64,000 nt of DNA from Caulobacter sp. CCUG 60055 (lineage in GTDB: Bacteria; Pseudomonadota; Alphaproteobacteria; Caulobacterales; Caulobacteraceae), in the NCBI RefSeq assembly GCF_022750545.1, contig NZ_PUIC01000001.1:558001-622000 (forward strand). The letters run 5' to 3'. Within the stretch, counting starts at the first letter, position 1; every line of letters starts with the position of its first letter. This document shows, one piece after another, positions 54,837-62,941 of the stretch. The notes under the pieces were generated by a model. The model ran no database searches. It saw only the letters and a list, made by a program, of their open reading frames with translations, and had not been told where the DNA came from. Both the position numbers and the translations under genes were made by a program.

Positions 54837-56009
54837 TTACGCCGGCGAAGGCGCGCGGCGCAGCCGCGTGGCGTGCAGGCCGACGATGATCGCCACCCCG
54901 ACCACGATCCAGGTCGCGGCCATGCCCAGGGCGCCGTGGGCGTCGCGGTCGTTGACCACGAACGAAGCCGCCAGCGGGCCAAGCGACGAGCCGAGCAGTT
55001 GGGCCCCGCCGCTGAGCATGGCCGCGCGCCGGCTGGGGTCGGCCTCGATGGCCAGCGGCACCAGATAGGGCGAGACGAACATGCCGACGAAGCCGGTCGC
55101 GGCGACGCAGGCGACGAACACCGCCGCCGACGGCTCCATGGCCAGGACGGCGTAGGCCCCCAGGCACACGAGGCCCGAGACCACGAAGGCCGCGACATAG
55201 GTGATGCGTTCGGCGACCAGGGTGGCGGCGGCCGCCCCCAGGATCTGCACGCCCAGCGAGGCCGGCGCGGCGATGGCGATCACCTCTGGCCCCAGGCCCG
55301 ACTGGTGCGCGAGCGAGGCCATGTACACCCACACCGCAACCCCCGCTCCGGTGTAGATCAGCGTGGCCAGCAGCGCGATCCAGCCGCGCGGCGGCGGCAG
55401 GCCCTCGACGCCGCCTTCGTGGGCCAGCGGCGGATAGCGGTGCGGAACCAAGAGCGCGATCAGGGCGGCCAGGCCCGCGCCCGCCGCCAGGAAGCCGAAG
55501 CCGCCCTCGACGCCCAGGCGCGGCGCGATCAGCTTGGCCATGATCACCGCCACGGTCAGCTGCAGCACCGTCAGGACCGTGAAGAACACGCCGGCCCAGC
55601 GTTCCGGCGAGGCCTGCCGGCCGATCAGGCTGATGGTGATCCACAGAAGGACGCCCGACGGCAGGCCGGCCAGCCCCCGGATCAGCAGGATGGCCGCGCC
55701 GGCGGCGTGCATGGTGGCCAGGTTCGCCGCCGCCAGCGCCAGGGCGGCCGCGACGCCGAACAGGCGCATGTGGTGCGGCTTGAACAGGGCCCCGGCCCCG
55801 GCCGCCGCCACGCCCATGACGAACAGCTCGAGCATCGCCGCCTCGCCGATCTGGGCGGCGCTGATGCGATGGGCGTCCGACATCGCCCCGAACAGGATCG
55901 GCTGCACCCCCGCCCCGAGCAGGGCGGCCACCCCCATGAACAGGGCCGCGGCGCTGGCCAGCCTGGGCGGCCGCCAGGCCTCCAGCTCGGCGTCGGCGAT
56001 ATTCGACAT
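54837..56009 (-). CDS. MFS transporter
   Basis: A 390-residue, roughly twelve-helix major facilitator without a specific family match. Helices begin at LASAAALFMGVAALLGAGVQPILFG; the loop 2-3 motif is weak. It is the distal gene behind the TonB receptor and DUF6607-like genes on the minus strand, 94 bases from the latter, so a role in uptake or export linked to that system is possible. Substrate unknown. Confidence 0.82.
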   Translation of the reverse strand: MSNIADAELEAWRPPRLASAAALFMGVAALLGAGVQPILFGAMSDAHRISAAQIGEAAMLELFVMGVAAAGAGALFKPHHMRLFGVAAALALAAANLATMHAAGAAILLIRGLAGLPSGVLLWITISLIGRQASPERWAGVFFTVLTVLQLTVAVIMAKLIAPRLGVEGGFGFLAAGAGLAALIALLVPHRYPPLAHEGGVEGLPPPRGWIALLATLIYTGAGVAVWVYMASLAHQSGLGPEVIAIAAPASLGVQILGAAAATLVAERITYVAAFVVSGLVCLGAYAVLAMEPSAAVFVACVAATGFVGMFVSPYLVPLAIEADPSRRAAMLSGGAQLLGSSLGPLAASFVVNDRDAHGALGMAATWIVVGVAIIVGLHATRLRRAPSPA

Positions 56010-56103: not shown

Positions 56104-57099
56104 CTATCGCGCCGCGGCGATCAGCTTGCGGGCTTCGGCGACTGAGGCGGCGACCTCGGCCTTGCCGGCGGCGATGTCGTCGGCCATCCCCATCAGCTTG
56201 GGCGCCAGCACCGATCCGCTTTCGGCCTCCTCGGTCACCGAAACCCCGCCGCCGCGCCGGATCGCCTCGTCCCAGGCCGCGCGGACCTCGGCCCAATAGT
56301 CCTTGGTCCTGGCCCAGTAGGCGTCGGCGGCGGCGACCGGGAAATCGTCTGCGCGCTGGTAGGTGTTGAGCACCGCCTCGTGCACGAAGGTGACGCTGGC
56401 CCCGTCCTTGGTCCCGATCTTGGCGTTGTCCTGTTCGTGCACCCACCCCGTCGGGGTCAGGGCGTGCCGGTTGGTCCCGACATAGCGGTCATAGACCGGA
56501 TGGCGGACCGCGTCGCGCCGGGCCAGGGGGCGCCAGGTCTCGTTGCTGGTCCAGCGCGCCACGCCGTCGTCATAGACCCAGCGCCCGACCCCGCCGTAGC
56601 GCGGCGAATCGTCGGTCTGCCAGACGGTCTGGGACCATGCGCCGGACCGCTCGGCGGCCGCCACGGCGGTCAGCCCCCAGCGCCCCTTGCCGCCATAGGT
56701 CAGCACCGACTGCGGCTCGTAGACCCAGTCCTGACGCCAGTGCTTGACCACGGCGGGCTTGCCGTCGTGGTCCTCGACCACCAGCAGGTGCTGCAGGCGG
56801 ATGAGGCCCGGGCGGTCCTCGATGACGCGGACCACCTCGTGGCCGCCGCTGATCTTGGCGGGGATGGGCTGGTAGCCGGGGGTGAAGGCGGCGGTCTCGC
56901 GGAAATCGAACCGCACCTTGTATGTCCCGGCCATGGCCAGGATCGCCTGGCGGTCGCGCTCGTAGCGGGCGCTGGGCGCCGTCGCGGCGGCGGGCGCCGC
57001 CTGGCCGGGCCCGCCCTGGGCCGGCGCGGCCTGGGCGGCGGTCGCGGCGGCGAGGAGCAGGCCGCCGGCGAGCGCGGCCTGGGCGAGAACTTGGATCAT
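56104..57099 (-). CDS. DUF6607-like exported protein
   Basis: A 331-residue secreted protein of unknown biochemical function. A Sec signal (about residues 1-24, LAQAALAGGLLLAAATAAQA) precedes a Pro/Ala linker and a beta-rich domain with many Trp and Tyr: HWRQDWVYEPQSVLTYGGKGRWGL, WQTDDSPRYGGVGRWVYDD and TGWVHEQDNAKIG. Proteins of this family are frequently encoded next to TonB-dependent haem receptors, as here. ATG at 57099 is chosen to keep the signal peptide at the start; an ATG at 57126 adds charged residues without a ribosome site. Likely co-transcribed with the receptor 36 bases upstream. Confidence 0.8.
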   Translation of the reverse strand: MIQVLAQAALAGGLLLAAATAAQAAPAQGGPGQAAPAAATAPSARYERDRQAILAMAGTYKVRFDFRETAAFTPGYQPIPAKISGGHEVVRVIEDRPGLIRLQHLLVVEDHDGKPAVVKHWRQDWVYEPQSVLTYGGKGRWGLTAVAAAERSGAWSQTVWQTDDSPRYGGVGRWVYDDGVARWTSNETWRPLARRDAVRHPVYDRYVGTNRHALTPTGWVHEQDNAKIGTKDGASVTFVHEAVLNTYQRADDFPVAAADAYWARTKDYWAEVRAAWDEAIRRGGGVSVTEEAESGSVLAPKLMGMADDIAAGKAEVAASVAEARKLIAAAR

Positions 57100-57135
57100 G
57101 GTCTTGTCGTCCTTGTCGGCGTGCATGGCGGCGGA

Positions 57136-59319
57136 TCAGAAGCGCACGGTGAGCGAGGCGCCGGCGTTGCGGCCGGGCTGGGTGTAGGCGTCGGTCACGG
57201 TCGAGGCGGTCGAGAGCCCGCGCACGTCGCTCCACCACCAGTATTTCTGGTCGAACAGGTTGAAGACGCCGGCGCGCAGCACGGCGCGGTCGCCGAGGCT
57301 CCACCAGCCGGTCAGGTCGACCACCGTGAAGCTGGGCGGGGTGAAACAGTTCGGCGCGCAGGTTCCGCCGGTCCGCGACCGGCTCTTGCCGTCCGAATAG
57401 GTGGCGCTGAGCTGGCCGCCGAAACGTCCCGCCGGCTCGCGCCAGCCCAGGCCGGCGACCAGCTTGAACGGCTCGATGCTGGCCAGGGGCGTCGAGACGC
57501 CGTCCGACTTCTGGGTTCCCCGGGCGTAGGAGGCGGCCAGGCGCCCGGTCAGCCCGTGGCCGAGCTCCGCCTCGGCCTTGGCCTCGACGCCGGTGATCCG
57601 CACCTCGCCCAGATTGACGTATTTGAACAGCGCCGGGTCGGTCGGGGTGAACGAGCCCGACACCTGCACCTGCTCGATGAAGTCGTCGTACCAGCCGGCG
57701 AAACCGGTCACGCTCGCCGACCACCGCCGCCCCTTGAAGCGGGCGCCCGCCTCCAACGTCTGGCTGGTCTCAGGCTTGAGGTCGGGATTGGGAACCGAGC
57801 GGTAGTTGATGATCGGGTTGGAGAAGCCGTTGTTGACCTGGGACGGCTCGGGCGACTTGAAGCCCTGGGCGTAGTTGGCGAACAGGCCGATGTTCGGCGT
57901 CGCCTGGAACACCGCCGCCAGCCTCGGCGTCAGCCGCCCGTCGCTCTGGGCGCGCGGCGTGAAGGTGGTGAACAGCGGGTCGGCCTTGGGGTCGAGGTCG
58001 TAATAGTCGTAGCGCAGCGCCGGATAGAGGTTCAGCCGCCCGCCCATCAGGCCGATCTCGTCCTGCACGAACAGGCCTGCCAGCACGTAGTCGGTGACCG
58101 GGAAGGCCCGCGTCGGGAAGCTGTCGCCCATCGACGGGACCGTGCCGTCGCGCACGCCGGTCTGGCGGGTCAGCGAGACGTCGCCGCCATAGACGAAGTG
58201 ATGCTCGACGGCGCCGGTGGTCAGACGGCTCTCCAGCTGTCCCGACAGGCCGTAGACACGGTTGTCGAAGGTGTTCAGCCGCGTGCGGGCCAGGGCCGTG
58301 TTGCGGGTCTCGAAGGAGAACTGCTCGGTGCGGCTGGTCTGGAAATAGCCGACCAGGTAGCCGGCCGAGATCGGGCCGCCGTCGCCCTTGTAGCGGTAGT
58401 CGAGGCTGAGGCGGTCGCGTTTGATGTCGTCCTGCGCCCGCAGGCCGACGGCGCTGGTCGCCGTCAGCGGCGGCTTGGCGATGGCGCTGAGCACGTTGGT
58501 GTCGAGCTGGCTGTCCAGGTGGTCCCATGTCAGGCGGACGCGATGCGTGTCCGACGGCGCGTAGACCAGCTTGGCCAGGGCCGCGTTCGAGCCGGAATCC
58601 TGAGGATTGGGCGTGGTGCGGTCGACATTGGCGACGCCGTTCGAGCCCTTGTTGTCGAGCTCGTGGCCGTCGCGGCGGGTATAGGCCAGCATCACGCCCC
58701 AGGGGCCGTCGCGGCCGGCGACGGTCGCCCCTTCGCTCCAGCTGTCGTTCTGCGAGGCGTAGCCGACGCGGGCCTGGCCGCCCCAGACCTGCCCTGGCTT
58801 GAGGAAGTCCTCCGGGTCCTTGGTGACGTAGCTGACCGCCCCGGCCAGGCCGTCGCCGCCGTACAGGGCCGAGGCCGGGCCGCGCAGGATCTCCACCGAC
58901 TTCAGCAGGCCCAGGTCGGCGTAGTCGCCCCGGCCGACCGATTGCGGACCGAAGCTGTAGGCGTCGGGGATGCGCACGCCGTCGATCTGGATCAGCACCC
59001 GGTCGCCTTCCAGGCCGCGGATGTTGAAACCGCTGTCGCCGTCGCGGCCGGTGGACGAGCCGGCGGCGGTGAAGCGGGCCGGGCTGCGGCGGACGGCCAC
59101 CCCCGGCTCGTAGCGGACCAGATCCTTGATGTCGTTGACCAGCTGGTCGTCGATCTGCTGGCTGGAGATGACGCTCACCGTGGCCGGCGCCTGATCGACC
59201 GGCTTGGCGGTCCGGGTCGCGGTCACCGTCACCGGCTCGACCGGCGTCGCCTCGTCGGCGTGGGCCGCCGCGAACCCCAGAACCCAGACCGGAACCGTCA
59301 ACATCAGCACGCGACGCAT
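57136..59319 (-). CDS. TonB-dependent haem/haemoglobin-type receptor
   Basis: A 727-residue outer-membrane receptor. Signal peptide about 1-22, TonB box PVEPVTVTATRT, plug domain with VSVISSQQIDDQLVNDIKDLVRYEPGVAVR and SGFNIRGLEGDRVLIQIDGVRIPDAYSFG, then a 22-strand barrel ending in Phe (ASLTVRF). The haem-receptor marker region PEPSQVNNGF...VPNPDLKPETS corresponds to the FRAP/NPNL boxes, although the FRAP box itself is altered. ATG at 59319 starts the signal. A Fur-like dyad lies 47-61 bases upstream. Iron-repressed haem uptake is inferred. Confidence 0.9.
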   Translation of the reverse strand: MRRVLMLTVPVWVLGFAAAHADEATPVEPVTVTATRTAKPVDQAPATVSVISSQQIDDQLVNDIKDLVRYEPGVAVRRSPARFTAAGSSTGRDGDSGFNIRGLEGDRVLIQIDGVRIPDAYSFGPQSVGRGDYADLGLLKSVEILRGPASALYGGDGLAGAVSYVTKDPEDFLKPGQVWGGQARVGYASQNDSWSEGATVAGRDGPWGVMLAYTRRDGHELDNKGSNGVANVDRTTPNPQDSGSNAALAKLVYAPSDTHRVRLTWDHLDSQLDTNVLSAIAKPPLTATSAVGLRAQDDIKRDRLSLDYRYKGDGGPISAGYLVGYFQTSRTEQFSFETRNTALARTRLNTFDNRVYGLSGQLESRLTTGAVEHHFVYGGDVSLTRQTGVRDGTVPSMGDSFPTRAFPVTDYVLAGLFVQDEIGLMGGRLNLYPALRYDYYDLDPKADPLFTTFTPRAQSDGRLTPRLAAVFQATPNIGLFANYAQGFKSPEPSQVNNGFSNPIINYRSVPNPDLKPETSQTLEAGARFKGRRWSASVTGFAGWYDDFIEQVQVSGSFTPTDPALFKYVNLGEVRITGVEAKAEAELGHGLTGRLAASYARGTQKSDGVSTPLASIEPFKLVAGLGWREPAGRFGGQLSATYSDGKSRSRTGGTCAPNCFTPPSFTVVDLTGWWSLGDRAVLRAGVFNLFDQKYWWWSDVRGLSTASTVTDAYTQPGRNAGASLTVRF

Positions 59320-59365
59320 CGCCACCCCCAAATGAGAATCCAAGATGGCGAGGAGTTATTGCAAT

Positions 59366-59514: not shown

Positions 59515-60408
59515 ATGGCCGAAGCACGCATCATCGACGGCAAGGCCTTCGCCGACGGCCTGCGCGCGCGCATCGCCGAAGAGGTGGCGAGCCTCCAGGC
59601 CGAGCACGGCCTGACCCCCGGCCTGGCGGTGGTGCTGGTCGGCGACGACCCGGCCAGCCAGGTCTATGTGCGCAACAAAGGCGAGCAGACCCTGGCCGTC
59701 GGCATGCATTCGGTCACCCACCGCCTGGCCGCCGACACCCGGCAGGAGGACCTGATCGCCCTGGTCGAACAGCTCAACGCCGACCCGGCGATCCACGGCG
59801 TGCTGGTGCAGCTGCCCCTGCCCGCCCACCTCGACCCGGCGGTGGTGATCGCCGCCCTCGACCCGGACAAGGACGTCGACGGCCTGAGCGTGATCAGCGC
59901 CGGCCGCCTCGCCTCGGGCCTGCCCGGACTGACCTCCTGCACGCCGCTGGGCTGCATGATGCTGCTGCGCGACGCCCTGGGCGACCTGACGGGCAAGAAC
60001 GCCGTGGTCATCGGCCGCTCGAACCTGATGGGCAAGCCGATGGCGCAACTGCTGCTGCAGGCCGACTGCACGGTCACCATCGCCCATTCGCGCAGCCGCG
60101 ACCTGCCGGCCATCTGCCGCCAGGCGGACATCGTCGTCGCCGCCGTCGGACGCGCCGAGATGGTCAAGGGCGACTGGATCAAGCCGGGCGCGGCGGTGAT
60201 CGATGTCGGCATCACCCGCTTCCCCGCCCGCGACCCGCAGGCCGCCGCCGCCGGCAAGACGCGGCTGGTCGGCGACGTGGCCTTCGACGAGGCCAAGGCG
60301 GTCGCCGGGTGGATCACCCCCGTCCCCGGCGGCGTCGGGCCGATGACCATCGCCTGCCTGTTGCAGAACACCCTGACCGCCGCCAAGCGGCGGAGCGGCC
60401 TGGCCTGA
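59515..60408 (+). CDS. folD: Methylenetetrahydrofolate dehydrogenase/cyclohydrolase
   Basis: A 297-residue FolD, oxidising methylene-THF to methenyl- then formyl-THF. Active-site motif [17 protein letters not shown] with catalytic Lys, then [33 protein letters not shown] (NADP site) and [19 protein letters not shown]. Length is normal. Starts at ATG 59515. Confidence 0.97.
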
Positions 60409-60456
60409 CCGGTCGGACGCCGTAAGGTAGTCCTAGCTATCTCTTTCCTGCCTGGA

Positions 60457-60481
60457 CGTTTTCGCTACAGTGCCGAAAACG
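60457..60481. promoter_or_regulatory. Inverted repeat upstream of the cytochrome c gene
   Basis: CGTTTTCG (60457-60464) and CGAAAACG (60474-60481) are perfect arms with a 9-base spacer, ending 22 bases before the GTG start. It could be an operator or leader hairpin. Confidence 0.5.
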
Positions 60482-60503
60482 CGAAAGACCGGGGAGGAAC
60501 GGC

Positions 60504-60857
60504 GTGAGTCGTCTGCTGATCATCGCCGCGGCGGGCCTGGGCCTGGCCGCCTGTGGTCCCAAGAAGCCGCCGACGCCGGCCGAGGCCGCCGCCCTGCGCC
60601 CCGCCGACGCGCGGCTGGCCCAGCTCTACGACGCCTCTTGCAAGGCCTGCCACGCCCAGGCCGACACCGGCGCGCCGCTGGTCCACGACCACGCCGCCTG
60701 GGACCCGCGCTGGAGACAGGGCGAACCGGTGCTGCTCGACCACGTCGTCCAGGGCTATCAGGCCATGCCGGCCCTGGGCCAATGCGCCAGCTGCGCGCCC
60801 GACGACCTCAAGCGGCTGATCCGCTTCCTGGCCGACCGCGAAGGAGACGGCCGATGA
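60504..60857 (+). CDS. Cytochrome c5-family lipoprotein
   Basis: A 117-residue exported monohaem cytochrome. A lipoprotein signal ends at Cys17 (LGLAACG). The haem motif is CKACH (Cys46-His50), and the axial Met is in YQAMPALGQC, followed by the cytochrome c5-type second Cys pair CASC. Such proteins are periplasmic electron carriers. GTG start has GGGGAGGAA upstream. Its TGA overlaps the next gene's ATG (ATGA), so the pair is translationally coupled with a flavin oxidase. Confidence 0.88.
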   Translation: MSRLLIIAAAGLGLAACGPKKPPTPAEAAALRPADARLAQLYDASCKACHAQADTGAPLVHDHAAWDPRWRQGEPVLLDHVVQGYQAMPALGQCASCAPDDLKRLIRFLADREGDGR

Positions 60858-62269
60858 TCTCGCGTCGCGGAGCCCTGATCGCCGGCGGAGCGACCGTCGC
60901 CGTAGTTGGCGCCGGCGCCGGCGCGGTCGCCGTGGCCAAGCACGACAAACCCGAGCCGGCCGCCCCGCCCTCGACCGACAATCAGGGCCGGCTTCTTTGG
61001 CGCAACTGGTCGGGCATCCAGCACAGCTATCCGCAGGCGCGGCTGGCGCCGAAGTCCGAAGACGAGGTCGCCCAGGCGCTGAAGACCGCCCCCGGCCCGA
61101 TCCGGGCGGTGGGAGCCGGCCACTCCTTCACCGCCCTGGTGCCGACCGCCGGCAGCCTGATGTCGCTGGACGGCCTCGCAGGGATCGCCGGCTGGGAGGG
61201 CGAGGACCAGGCCGTGGTCTGGTGCGGCACCCGCCTGGGCCAGCTCGGCCCGGCCCTGGCGGCCAAGGGCCGGGCGATGGCCAACCTGCCCGACATCAAC
61301 AAGCAGTCGCTGGGCGGCGCGCTCAGCACCGCCACCCACGGCACGGGCAAGACCCTGGTCGCGATCCACGCCGACGTCACCGCGCTGAGGCTGGCGACGA
61401 CCAGCGGCGAAATCCTCGAATGCGACGCCGACAAGAACCGCGACATCTTCGACGCGGCCCGCGTTTCGCTGGGCGCTCTCGGCGTCATCACCCAGGCCCG
61501 CCTGCGCACCACGGCCAATCGCCGCCTGCATCGCCGCGTGTTCGCCGAGCCCTTCGAGGAGACCCTGGCCAAGGCCGAGGAACGCTGGGCCCGGCACCGC
61601 AACTACGAATTCTACGCCGTGCCGTTCACGGGCCTGGCCGCCAACATCACCCATGACGAGACCGACGCGCCGGCGATCCCGCGCGGCCCGGACACCGACA
61701 CCGATTTCCTCAACATGCTCCGGGCCATGCGCAACCTGCTCGGCTTTTCGACGCCGTTGCGCAAGGCGGCGGCCAAGACCCTGCTGTCGGCCGCCGCCCA
61801 GCCGGAGGAAGCCGTCGACGAGGGCTGGAAGCTGCTGTCGACCGAGCGGCCCATGCGGTTCAACGAGATGGAGTTCCACCTGCCGGTCGACGCCCAGCTC
61901 GCCGCGCTCAAGGAGGTGGTGGCGGCCATCGAGGCCAAGCGGCCGGACGTGTTCTTCCCCATCGAGGTGCGGCGCATCGCGCCCGACGACGCGTGGCTGT
62001 CGCCGTTCAACGCCGGGCCGCGCGGCTCGGTGGCGGTGCACGCCTATTATCGCGACGACTACGCCTTCCTGTTCGAGCTGATCGAGCCGATCTTCCGCCG
62101 CCATGACGGCCGCCCCCACTGGGGCAAGCTGCACAGCCTGCACGGCCAGCAGCTCCAGGCGCTCTATCCGCGCTGGGACGATTTCCTCGACCTGCGGCGA
62201 CGCCTGGACCCGGACGGACGGCTGCTCAATCCCTATCTGAAAGGCCTGTTCGGGCTCCAGAACGCCTGA
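60854..62269 (+). CDS. Exported FAD-linked oxidoreductase (D-arabinono-1,4-lactone oxidase family)
   Basis: A 471-residue flavoenzyme of the VAO/ALO family. The N-terminus MISRRGALIAGGATVAVVG is a twin-arginine-type signal. FAD-binding motif GPIRAVGAGHSFTALVP contains His that carries covalent FAD in relatives; PDINKQSLGGALSTATHGTGKTL is the second FAD segment. The C-terminal ALO domain ends with RPHWGKLH and DLRRRLDPDGRLLNPYL. Acts on sugar lactones or alditols in known members; substrate here is unknown. Coupling to a cytochrome c5 lipoprotein suggests electrons go to the respiratory chain rather than only to oxygen. Confidence 0.87.
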   Translation: MISRRGALIAGGATVAVVGAGAGAVAVAKHDKPEPAAPPSTDNQGRLLWRNWSGIQHSYPQARLAPKSEDEVAQALKTAPGPIRAVGAGHSFTALVPTAGSLMSLDGLAGIAGWEGEDQAVVWCGTRLGQLGPALAAKGRAMANLPDINKQSLGGALSTATHGTGKTLVAIHADVTALRLATTSGEILECDADKNRDIFDAARVSLGALGVITQARLRTTANRRLHRRVFAEPFEETLAKAEERWARHRNYEFYAVPFTGLAANITHDETDAPAIPRGPDTDTDFLNMLRAMRNLLGFSTPLRKAAAKTLLSAAAQPEEAVDEGWKLLSTERPMRFNEMEFHLPVDAQLAALKEVVAAIEAKRPDVFFPIEVRRIAPDDAWLSPFNAGPRGSVAVHAYYRDDYAFLFELIEPIFRRHDGRPHWGKLHSLHGQQLQALYPRWDDFLDLRRRLDPDGRLLNPYLKGLFGLQNA

Positions 62270-62281
62270 CGCCTCTCCTCG

Positions 62282-62941
62282 TCACTGGCCGCCGCCGGCG
62301 CTCCCTCGGGGAGCCAGGCTGGCGGCGCCGGTCTGGTCGGTCCAGGCGACGATCTGGCCCAGCACATCGCCCACGGCCGCGTCATAGGCCGGCACGATGG
62401 CCCCGACGCGGTTGTCGGCCGCCCTGCTGCGCCCCTCGAACACCTTGTCGCCCAGCAGCGCCCGGTCGCTCGGCCGCGCCATCACCGCGCGCACCTGCAC
62501 CACCACCGTCGGCGCGCCCTTGCCGGCCTCGTCGTAACGCGCCTCGAAGGTCCGCACGTCGAGGCGGATCACATAGTCGGCGCGGGTGACGTCGGTGCGC
62601 TGCACCAGCCGCGCGGGGCCGTCGGAGGCGTCGAACGCCCGTTGCAGGGCCTCGTCGAACAGGGTGGCGGCCGGCGCGAGCCAGCGGGCCTCGGCGATAT
62701 AGGCGGCCTGCTGCCGGTTGACGGTCAGGATGCGGTCGGTGGCCGCCGCGCGGGTGAAGCCGGTCGGCCCGCGCAGCACGGTGAACCGGGTCGACGCCGC
62801 CGCCGGCCTGGCCGCCGCGGAAGGCTCGCCGCCGAACCGGTAGAGCTGGGCCGGCTTGGTCTTGGGGAAGACCGTGATGCAACCGGCCAGGCCCAGGGCC
62901 AGGATCGACGCGGCGACGGGCAGGATCTTGCGGATGCTCAC
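62282..62941 (-). CDS. ABC transport auxiliary lipoprotein (PqiC/DUF330-like)
   Basis: A 219-residue outer-membrane-type lipoprotein. Signal ends in lipobox LAGC (Cys21). The body has the ABC_trans_aux pattern: FTVLRGPTGFTRAAATDRILTVNRQQAAYIAEARWLAPAATLFDEALQRAF and a C-terminal helical segment AAVGDVLGQIVAWTD. Such proteins pair with MCE transporters. ATG overlaps the mlaD-like stop by 4 bases. Confidence 0.88.
   Translation of the reverse strand: MSIRKILPVAASILALGLAGCITVFPKTKPAQLYRFGGEPSAAARPAAASTRFTVLRGPTGFTRAAATDRILTVNRQQAAYIAEARWLAPAATLFDEALQRAFDASDGPARLVQRTDVTRADYVIRLDVRTFEARYDEAGKGAPTVVVQVRAVMARPSDRALLGDKVFEGRSRAADNRVGAIVPAYDAAVGDVLGQIVAWTDQTGAASLAPRGSAGGGQ

Follow-up and report, generated by a model that had tools for sequence, protein, structure and literature searches.

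The window, by which we mean the whole 64,000-nt stretch of Caulobacter DNA that was analysed, contains folD (59515-60408), followed by a 95-bp gap and by two overlapping genes on the plus strand. The first of these encodes a cytochrome c5-type lipoprotein and the second a flavoprotein of the ALO (aldonolactone/alditol oxidase) family. An earlier note on this DNA had described two adjoining genes that overlap by ATGA, and this is borne out: the genes extend over 60504-60857 and 60854-62269 and share the ATGA at 60854-60857. Among the 51 pairs of our family sample (see below) this overlap was seen in this genome only, the remaining gaps being 5-178 bp. A gene for an ABC-transport auxiliary lipoprotein lies downstream of the pair on the opposite strand. 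Scans for sigma-70-type promoters and for terminators over 60300-62500 gave no hits. The features of the locus are:

60457-60481, no strand: 8-bp dyad with exact arms, CGTTTTCG-9 nt-CGAAAACG, 22 bp before the cytochrome start
60504-60857, plus strand: cytochrome c5-type lipoprotein, 117 aa, GTG start, TGA stop
60639-60653, plus strand: haem-binding CKACH, residues 46-50; both Cys and the His invariant in an 8-row alignment
60765-60767, plus strand: Met88, likely the sixth haem ligand, a role that we assume from class I cytochromes c; MP invariant in the 8-row alignment
60783-60794, plus strand: second Cys pair CASC, residues 94-97; both Cys invariant in the 8-row alignment
60854-62269, plus strand: ALO-family flavoprotein, 471 aa, ATG start, TGA stop
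60854-60943, plus strand: signal-like, Tat-like N-terminus MISRRGALIAGG..., with an RR motif and a hydrophobic stretch
61121-61123, plus strand: His90 in GHSF, predicted site of covalent FAD attachment, which we presume by homology to AldO; conserved in 86/86 aligned copies
61289-61291, plus strand: Pro146, flavin gate, corresponding to GalDH Ala113 in an ungapped alignment to 8qnr
61964-61972, plus strand: Glu371 and Arg373, active-site pair predicted by homology; Arg in 86/86 and Glu in 85/86 aligned copies
62126-62128, plus strand: Lys425 of the HWGK motif, conserved in 86/86 aligned copies; putative role by homology

The 8-bp dyad that had been noticed ahead of the pair is present and exact. 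It is the single such site in the window when up to 2 mismatches are allowed, and the single one in the 4.09-Mb genome when exact arms and a spacer of 7-11 nt are demanded. Perfect 8-bp dyads of any sequence with a 3-15 nt spacer have 82 placements in the window, and when the 95-bp intergenic stretch was shuffled 5000 times, an equal dyad arose in 78 cases. When the 450 bp upstream of the CxxCH codons were searched in 97 other paired copies (L052 supplies less than 300 bp), none had both arms and one, L156, had a single arm. We therefore rejected the dyad as a candidate for a conserved operator, since none of the 97 other pairs has both arms upstream; probably it is not one.

The cytochrome scored 45.1 bits against Pfam Cytochrome_CBB3 (cut-off 27). 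Its best matches among solved structures are of the c5 type and include ScyA (1kx2) and a chain of 8smr that is named cytochrome c5, in an entry which also contains a subunit of a cbb3 oxidase. The protein has the CxxCH motif, the MP loop and the second Cys pair before the last helix that define c5-type class I cytochromes, and the CASC pair aligns to the c5-type structures, as in c5 cytochromes. A lipobox (LAAC, with Cys17) follows a hydrophobic stretch, which predicts lipidation as in bacterial lipoproteins. A lipobox was found in 43 of 51 paired cytochrome representatives, while two could not be placed and six had none; five of these six carry, judged by eye, plain signal peptides or membrane anchors, and one is cut by a contig end. 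Since the lipobox is missing from 6/51 paired representatives, lipid anchoring of the paired cytochrome, as predicted from the N-termini, is usual and not essential. The genome encodes two haem-copper oxidase subunit I proteins. Three gammaproteobacteria that carry the pair (G943, G944, G945) have one to three additional c5-like genes elsewhere in the genome.

The flavoprotein belongs to TIGR01679 (bact_FAD_ox), which it matches with 608.6 bits against a curated cut-off of 292.25; six relatives with Gly, Pro or Ala at the gate were scanned as well and all scored above this cut-off. Pfam FAD_binding_4 and ALO were both matched above their cut-offs. The AlphaFold2 model (mean pLDDT 86.8) is nearest, among the matches listed, to plant L-galactono-1,4-lactone dehydrogenase (GalDH; Z 43.7 and 42.5) and to alditol oxidase (Z 42.1), which are nearly tied. 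Viral contigs were scanned once with the flavoprotein of the window and gave no match. Family and fold are also what would be expected of an enzyme of vitamin-C-type (aldonolactone) synthesis, making ascorbate-like products as the bacterial L-gulonolactone dehydrogenases (GUDH) do, and a review, PMC9602106, gives cytochrome c instead of oxygen as the acceptor of bacterial GUDH, a likeness drawn from their description and not from a comparison of sequences. However, the flavoprotein stayed below the cut-offs of TIGR01678 for sugar 1,4-lactone oxidases (172.7 versus 396.8 bits) and of the GalDH equivalog TIGR01676 (58.2 versus 458.25 bits), and neither its predicted periplasmic export nor the pyridoxal phosphate (PLP) partner described below suggests vitamin synthesis. 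We consider such a role unlikely.

To follow the conservation of the pair, we searched 199 genomes of the same family with both proteins. The cytochrome gene lies directly upstream of the flavoprotein gene and on the same strand in 51 of 53 close ALO copies or fragments (at least 58% identity), the two genes being separated by -1 to 178 bp, and upstream of 0/44 remote ALO copies (33-38% identity) in these 199 genomes. The two close copies that are not paired stand at contig breaks or on fragments: that of G056 is a fragment alone on its contig, and for G053 the cytochrome gene is on another contig, about 240 bp from the end. In the 148 family genomes that lack a close ALO copy, six have weak cytochrome matches (E 1.5e-5 or worse) and the remaining ones have no match at E ≤ 0.001. 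ALO matches were obtained in 33 of 385 genomes in a class-wide search (E ≤ 1e-60) and in 30 of 398 genomes in a phylum-wide search (E ≤ 1e-40); here the pair was also found in other Alphaproteobacteria and in a family that looks gammaproteobacterial and whose copies group with those of named Pseudomonas. Among named loci, of which we took the best 80 of at least 593, the cytochrome is directly upstream in 47. These paired loci include Caulobacter, Phenylobacterium, Nitrospirillum, Novosphingobium, Hyphomonas and Ruegeria as well as Pseudomonas, Marinobacter, Marinomonas, Duganella, Chromobacterium and others. The pair thus occurs in Alpha-, Beta- and Gammaproteobacteria, and the conserved pairing of the two families, for which the earlier note had proposed a survey, was found in three classes of Pseudomonadota; a lack of conservation, which the note would have taken as a refutation, was thus not observed. 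In the open-licence literature we found neither a description of the pair, or of the trio with the PLP gene, nor biochemistry for any paired member. At the unpaired L071 and L072 a c-type cytochrome gene other than that of the pair adjoins the ALO gene on the opposite strand, and these loci were not counted as pairs; L127 (G318) likewise has such a gene on the opposite strand, and in L127 and L072 the ALO protein has a Gly gate and no signal.

The residue at the flavin edge deserves particular attention. According to PMC11099136, Ala113 of plant GalDH contacts the N5-C4a edge of the flavin and excludes oxygen; through the exchange A113G two ancestral enzymes became 70- and 300-fold more reactive towards oxygen, and Gly occupies this position in GULO and in fungal ALO. 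When aligned to 8qnr with phmmer, the window protein has Pro146 opposite Ala113, with no gap nearby, and thus Pro instead of the Ala of GalDH. In the alignment of 86 copies, the gate of the 51 paired ones is Pro in 45, Ala in 4 and Ser in 2, and Gly stands there in 31 of the 35 unpaired ones. We enlarged this set with the named loci (best 80 of at least 593) and omitted L101 (28% identity), which gave 165 copies; 158 of them are distinct, as seven sequences occur in both samples. In this set c5 adjoins 98 of 115 copies with a gate other than Gly, whereas it adjoins 0/50 copies with Gly, and after an 80% identity cut the values were 51/64 versus 0/34. The gate is Pro, Ala or Ser in each of the 98 paired copies. 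Ala was seen in 8/165 copies, namely seven paired copies of Pseudomonas type and the unpaired L082.

Predicted export follows the same division. Every paired copy (98/98) has an RR signal-like N-terminus, 87 by rule and 11 by eye, the latter showing the RR motif ahead of a hydrophobic run. Applied to the 50 Gly copies, the rule scored six as having a signal. Two of these (L064, L074) look like read-through upstream of the likely start, and L061, which is closely related to L060, escaped the rule. An RR N-terminus is hence present in five Gly copies (L055, L060, L061, L168, L180) and absent from most.

Relatedness limits what can be concluded from these counts. A Fisher test on gate and c5 gave 5.6e-16, a value that ignores relatedness and is hence far too strong. 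We built a first tree from 66 of the 86 copies and a second from 98 of the 165 copies after the 80% identity cut. In the reduced tree, calculated with the gate column excluded, the gate changes four times and c5 six times. Six independent pairs differ in c5; on average the gate differed in the same way in 2.9 of them, in the opposite way in 0.0 and not at all in 3.1, and the sign test on such pairs gave a median p of 0.25. Half of the c5 changes are not accompanied by a change of the gate, and the number of events is small. With only four gate and six c5 changes, shared descent is a possible cause of the whole link. In the midpoint-rooted tree, two Gly groups, one of Rhizobium/Mesorhizobium type and one of Minwuia/Halovibrio type, branch from within the paired Pro copies.

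The published view of Pro at the gate is divided. A review lists Gly or Pro for oxidases and Ala for dehydrogenases, with exceptions, among them Arabidopsis GULLO5 (Pro) and the Mycobacterium tuberculosis GLDH (Gly), both of which lack oxidase activity (PMC11505616). In the phenol-oxidising subgroup, by contrast, a Pro that contacts N5 marks dehydrogenases and its replacement yields an oxidase (PMC7617285). The listing of Pro among oxidases is one argument for regarding the flavoprotein as an ordinary periplasmic oxidase that forms H2O2, with a cytochrome that is co-transcribed but serves something else, for instance general electron transfer to a terminal oxidase. This would also fit relatives of Hyphomonas type that manage without c5, and those gammaproteobacterial genomes in which the pair is accompanied by more c5-like genes. 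But the cytochrome is found beside 0/50 Gly-gate copies, and where a close ALO copy is missing (148 family genomes), the cytochrome match is weak (six genomes) or absent at E ≤ 0.001. Since a general carrier should not track the gate residue of one enzyme, the cytochrome is unlikely to be one, and we judge this alternative to be quite improbable. Our counts suggest that Pro fails as an oxidase mark in this family. Of the new results we regard the link between gate and genomic context as the most useful, as it allows a prediction, for the natural enzymes, of whether oxygen is used or not.

Seventeen of the 165 copies combine a gate other than Gly with the absence of an adjacent cytochrome gene. 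Twelve of these belong to one lineage of Hyphomonas type, three of them bearing Acidobacteria-type titles; L082 and L094 form a separate branch, L148 (the contig of G053) and L217 lie at contig breaks, and L181 has a c5-like gene elsewhere in its genome. When nine Hyphomonas-type genomes were searched with a c5 profile, none of the nine gave a match at E ≤ 1e-8. Of the controls, G380 and G439 are themselves rows of the profile, and the outside control was positive in 6/6 genomes. The enzymes of this lineage are still of the exported type and have a Pro or Ser gate. As 9/9 genomes retain such an enzyme although c5 was not matched in them, the flavoprotein can do without this cytochrome, and the enzymes of the lineage, judged from their sequences, probably use another cytochrome or another acceptor. 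The dedicated, membrane-attached haem protein proposed in the earlier note is usually lipid-anchored, as predicted from the lipobox (43/51), and it is not universal, 9/9 Hyphomonas-type genomes having given no c5 match. The three copies with the unexpected titles (L188, L191 and L196, titled Acidobacteria or Sulfopaludibacter MAGs) have an ALO N-terminus nearly identical to that of the Hyphomonas copy L187, and their contigs are likely misbinned.

To look for further partners, we clustered the genes in 34 stretches (33 plus the window). The sole frequent extra neighbour was a PLP protein of 394-456 aa with the alanine-racemase/D-threonine-aldolase fold (fold III), present in at least 18/34 stretches; this is a lower bound, as crude gene calls missed the ALO gene of the paired L122 and the short contig L134 contains no ALO gene. 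In the named loci (best 80 of at least 593) the PLP gene follows the ALO gene in 65/80. The protein shows the motifs KSLP and RPxQSE. We take the lysine of KSLP to be the Schiff-base lysine, and RPxQSE presumably occupies roughly the place of the HxC or HxD of metal-dependent relatives. In several stretches (among them L104:9737-11026 and L105:9928-11214) the PLP protein has an RR signal-like N-terminus of its own and is apparently exported. Signals of the PLP partner track the gate of the neighbouring flavoprotein: 37 of 38 partners beside a non-Gly enzyme have one, against 0/15 beside a Gly enzyme (53 partners scored, 12 could not be). The exported PLP form is absent from the genome of the window, which shows a remote match only, and the Caulobacter and Phenylobacterium loci examined, some of them cut by contig ends, have no PLP gene downstream. 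The window thus represents a two-gene form of the locus, as the PLP gene is missing there and in these loci.

These observations bear on the substrate. The earlier note had suggested a sugar lactone or alditol, which rests on the name of the family, while the frequent PLP neighbour points to an amino-bearing substrate or product. OngC, a relative by fold, deaminates glucosaminate, D-serine and D-threonine (PMC9537276), and because of this relative the pathway possibly acts on an amino-bearing compound. Flavoprotein and PLP partner might then work on one compound such as an amino-polyol or a hydroxy amino acid, with the PLP step lost in Caulobacter-type genomes, and the flavoprotein would be no lactone or alditol enzyme. 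The frequency of the PLP gene after ALO (65/80 named loci, at least 18/34 stretches), the dependence of its signal on the gate class and a BhcC/D-threonine-aldolase-like gene beside a signal-less paralog all favour this idea, but the operon in the window has no exported PLP gene, the match in the genome is remote, and neighbouring genes may serve different steps. We hold it to be possible, at somewhat less than even odds; it concerns the substrate and is compatible with our reading of the acceptor. Equally tentatively, one may think of an undescribed periplasmic respiratory pathway in which three exported proteins, c5, the FAD enzyme and a fold-III PLP enzyme whose metal site is altered, serve the conversion of a single hydroxylated amino-bearing compound, the whole set having flipped repeatedly in evolution between an exported, c5-linked form with Pro, Ala or Ser and a cytosolic, O2-linked form with Gly.

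Our preferred explanation, to which we assign a probability of about 0.7, is that the flavoprotein is an exported dehydrogenase that hands its electrons to the cytochrome c5 and not to O2. The FAD enzyme would reach the periplasm by its RR (Tat-like) signal and would there oxidise a hydroxylated small molecule. Electrons would pass singly from it to the adjacent c5 cytochrome, which, held on the membrane by its predicted lipid, would relay them to a terminal oxidase. Pro146 beside N5/C4a of the flavin would bar O2, which would direct the electrons to haem and prevent the formation of H2O2. Relatives that have a Gly gate and lack export signal and cytochrome are predicted to be O2-using oxidases. 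Electron transfer, suppression of the oxygen reaction and the physiological acceptor are what we infer here from the conserved pair, the predicted fold, the haem motif and the co-variation. The coupling of an exported flavoprotein to a haem protein, as anticipated in the earlier note, is supported by conservation in three classes and by the co-variation of c5, export and gate.

Such a mode of action probably resembles that of GalDH with cytochrome c and that of p-cresol methylhydroxylase (PCMH) with its cytochrome partner, by analogy. GalDH of plants is the best of the structural matches listed for the model and, according to PMC11099136, reduces cytochrome c in the assay, reacts poorly with O2 and binds FAD non-covalently, while the window protein keeps the His for covalent FAD. 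GalDH is also mitochondrial, with cytochrome c as the suggested acceptor, and has Ala at the gate instead of Pro. AldO (Streptomyces; Actinomycetota structure 8ot8) has the same domains and fold, and the Glu, Arg and Lys positions align. It differs in being normally a cytosolic oxidase with covalent FAD (PMC3917463), and in having an Ala gate and Ser in place of Asp147 of the window protein. The AldO gate is Ala105, as given in PMC5646868, yet AldO is an oxidase. PCMH and vanillyl alcohol dehydrogenase (VAD) are VAO-fold dehydrogenases with a cytochrome acceptor and the N5-contacting Pro as their mark, and the exchange P151L makes VAD an oxidase, as stated in PMC7617285; the correspondence of this site to Pro146 is by analogy only, and both enzymes differ in acting on phenolic substrates and in belonging to another subfamily. 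The same source calls the choice of flavoenzymes between O2 and a protein acceptor an open issue. One bacterial family here offers natural replicates, in which the likely acceptor can be read from the genomic context (cytochrome gene and export present or absent) and is followed by one residue, and such matched natural enzymes permit direct tests of oxidase versus dehydrogenase. If the pathway of three exported proteins with its repeated flips exists, a gate Pro would denote dehydrogenases in this family, contrary to the published rule of thumb. The distribution of the pair suggests that Caulobacter, Phenylobacterium, Novosphingobium, Pseudomonas, Marinobacter and others share a conserved point of entry into respiration, of which we found no description in the open-licence literature.

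Some further genes of this genome were recorded. A remote ALO paralog (L002; G000:C2:81385-82641) has 35% identity, a Gly gate and no signal. It adjoins the BhcC/D-threonine-aldolase-like gene, and TetR-like and MFS-like genes, both read from sequence, are close by. On the minus strand of the window, a TonB-dependent receptor of the haem/haemoglobin type (57136-59343; TIGR01786 and TIGR01785 above cut-off), a DUF6607 protein gene (56104-57126) and a gene with a weak MFS match (54837-56009) lie near the cytochrome pair and perhaps form a haem-uptake unit.
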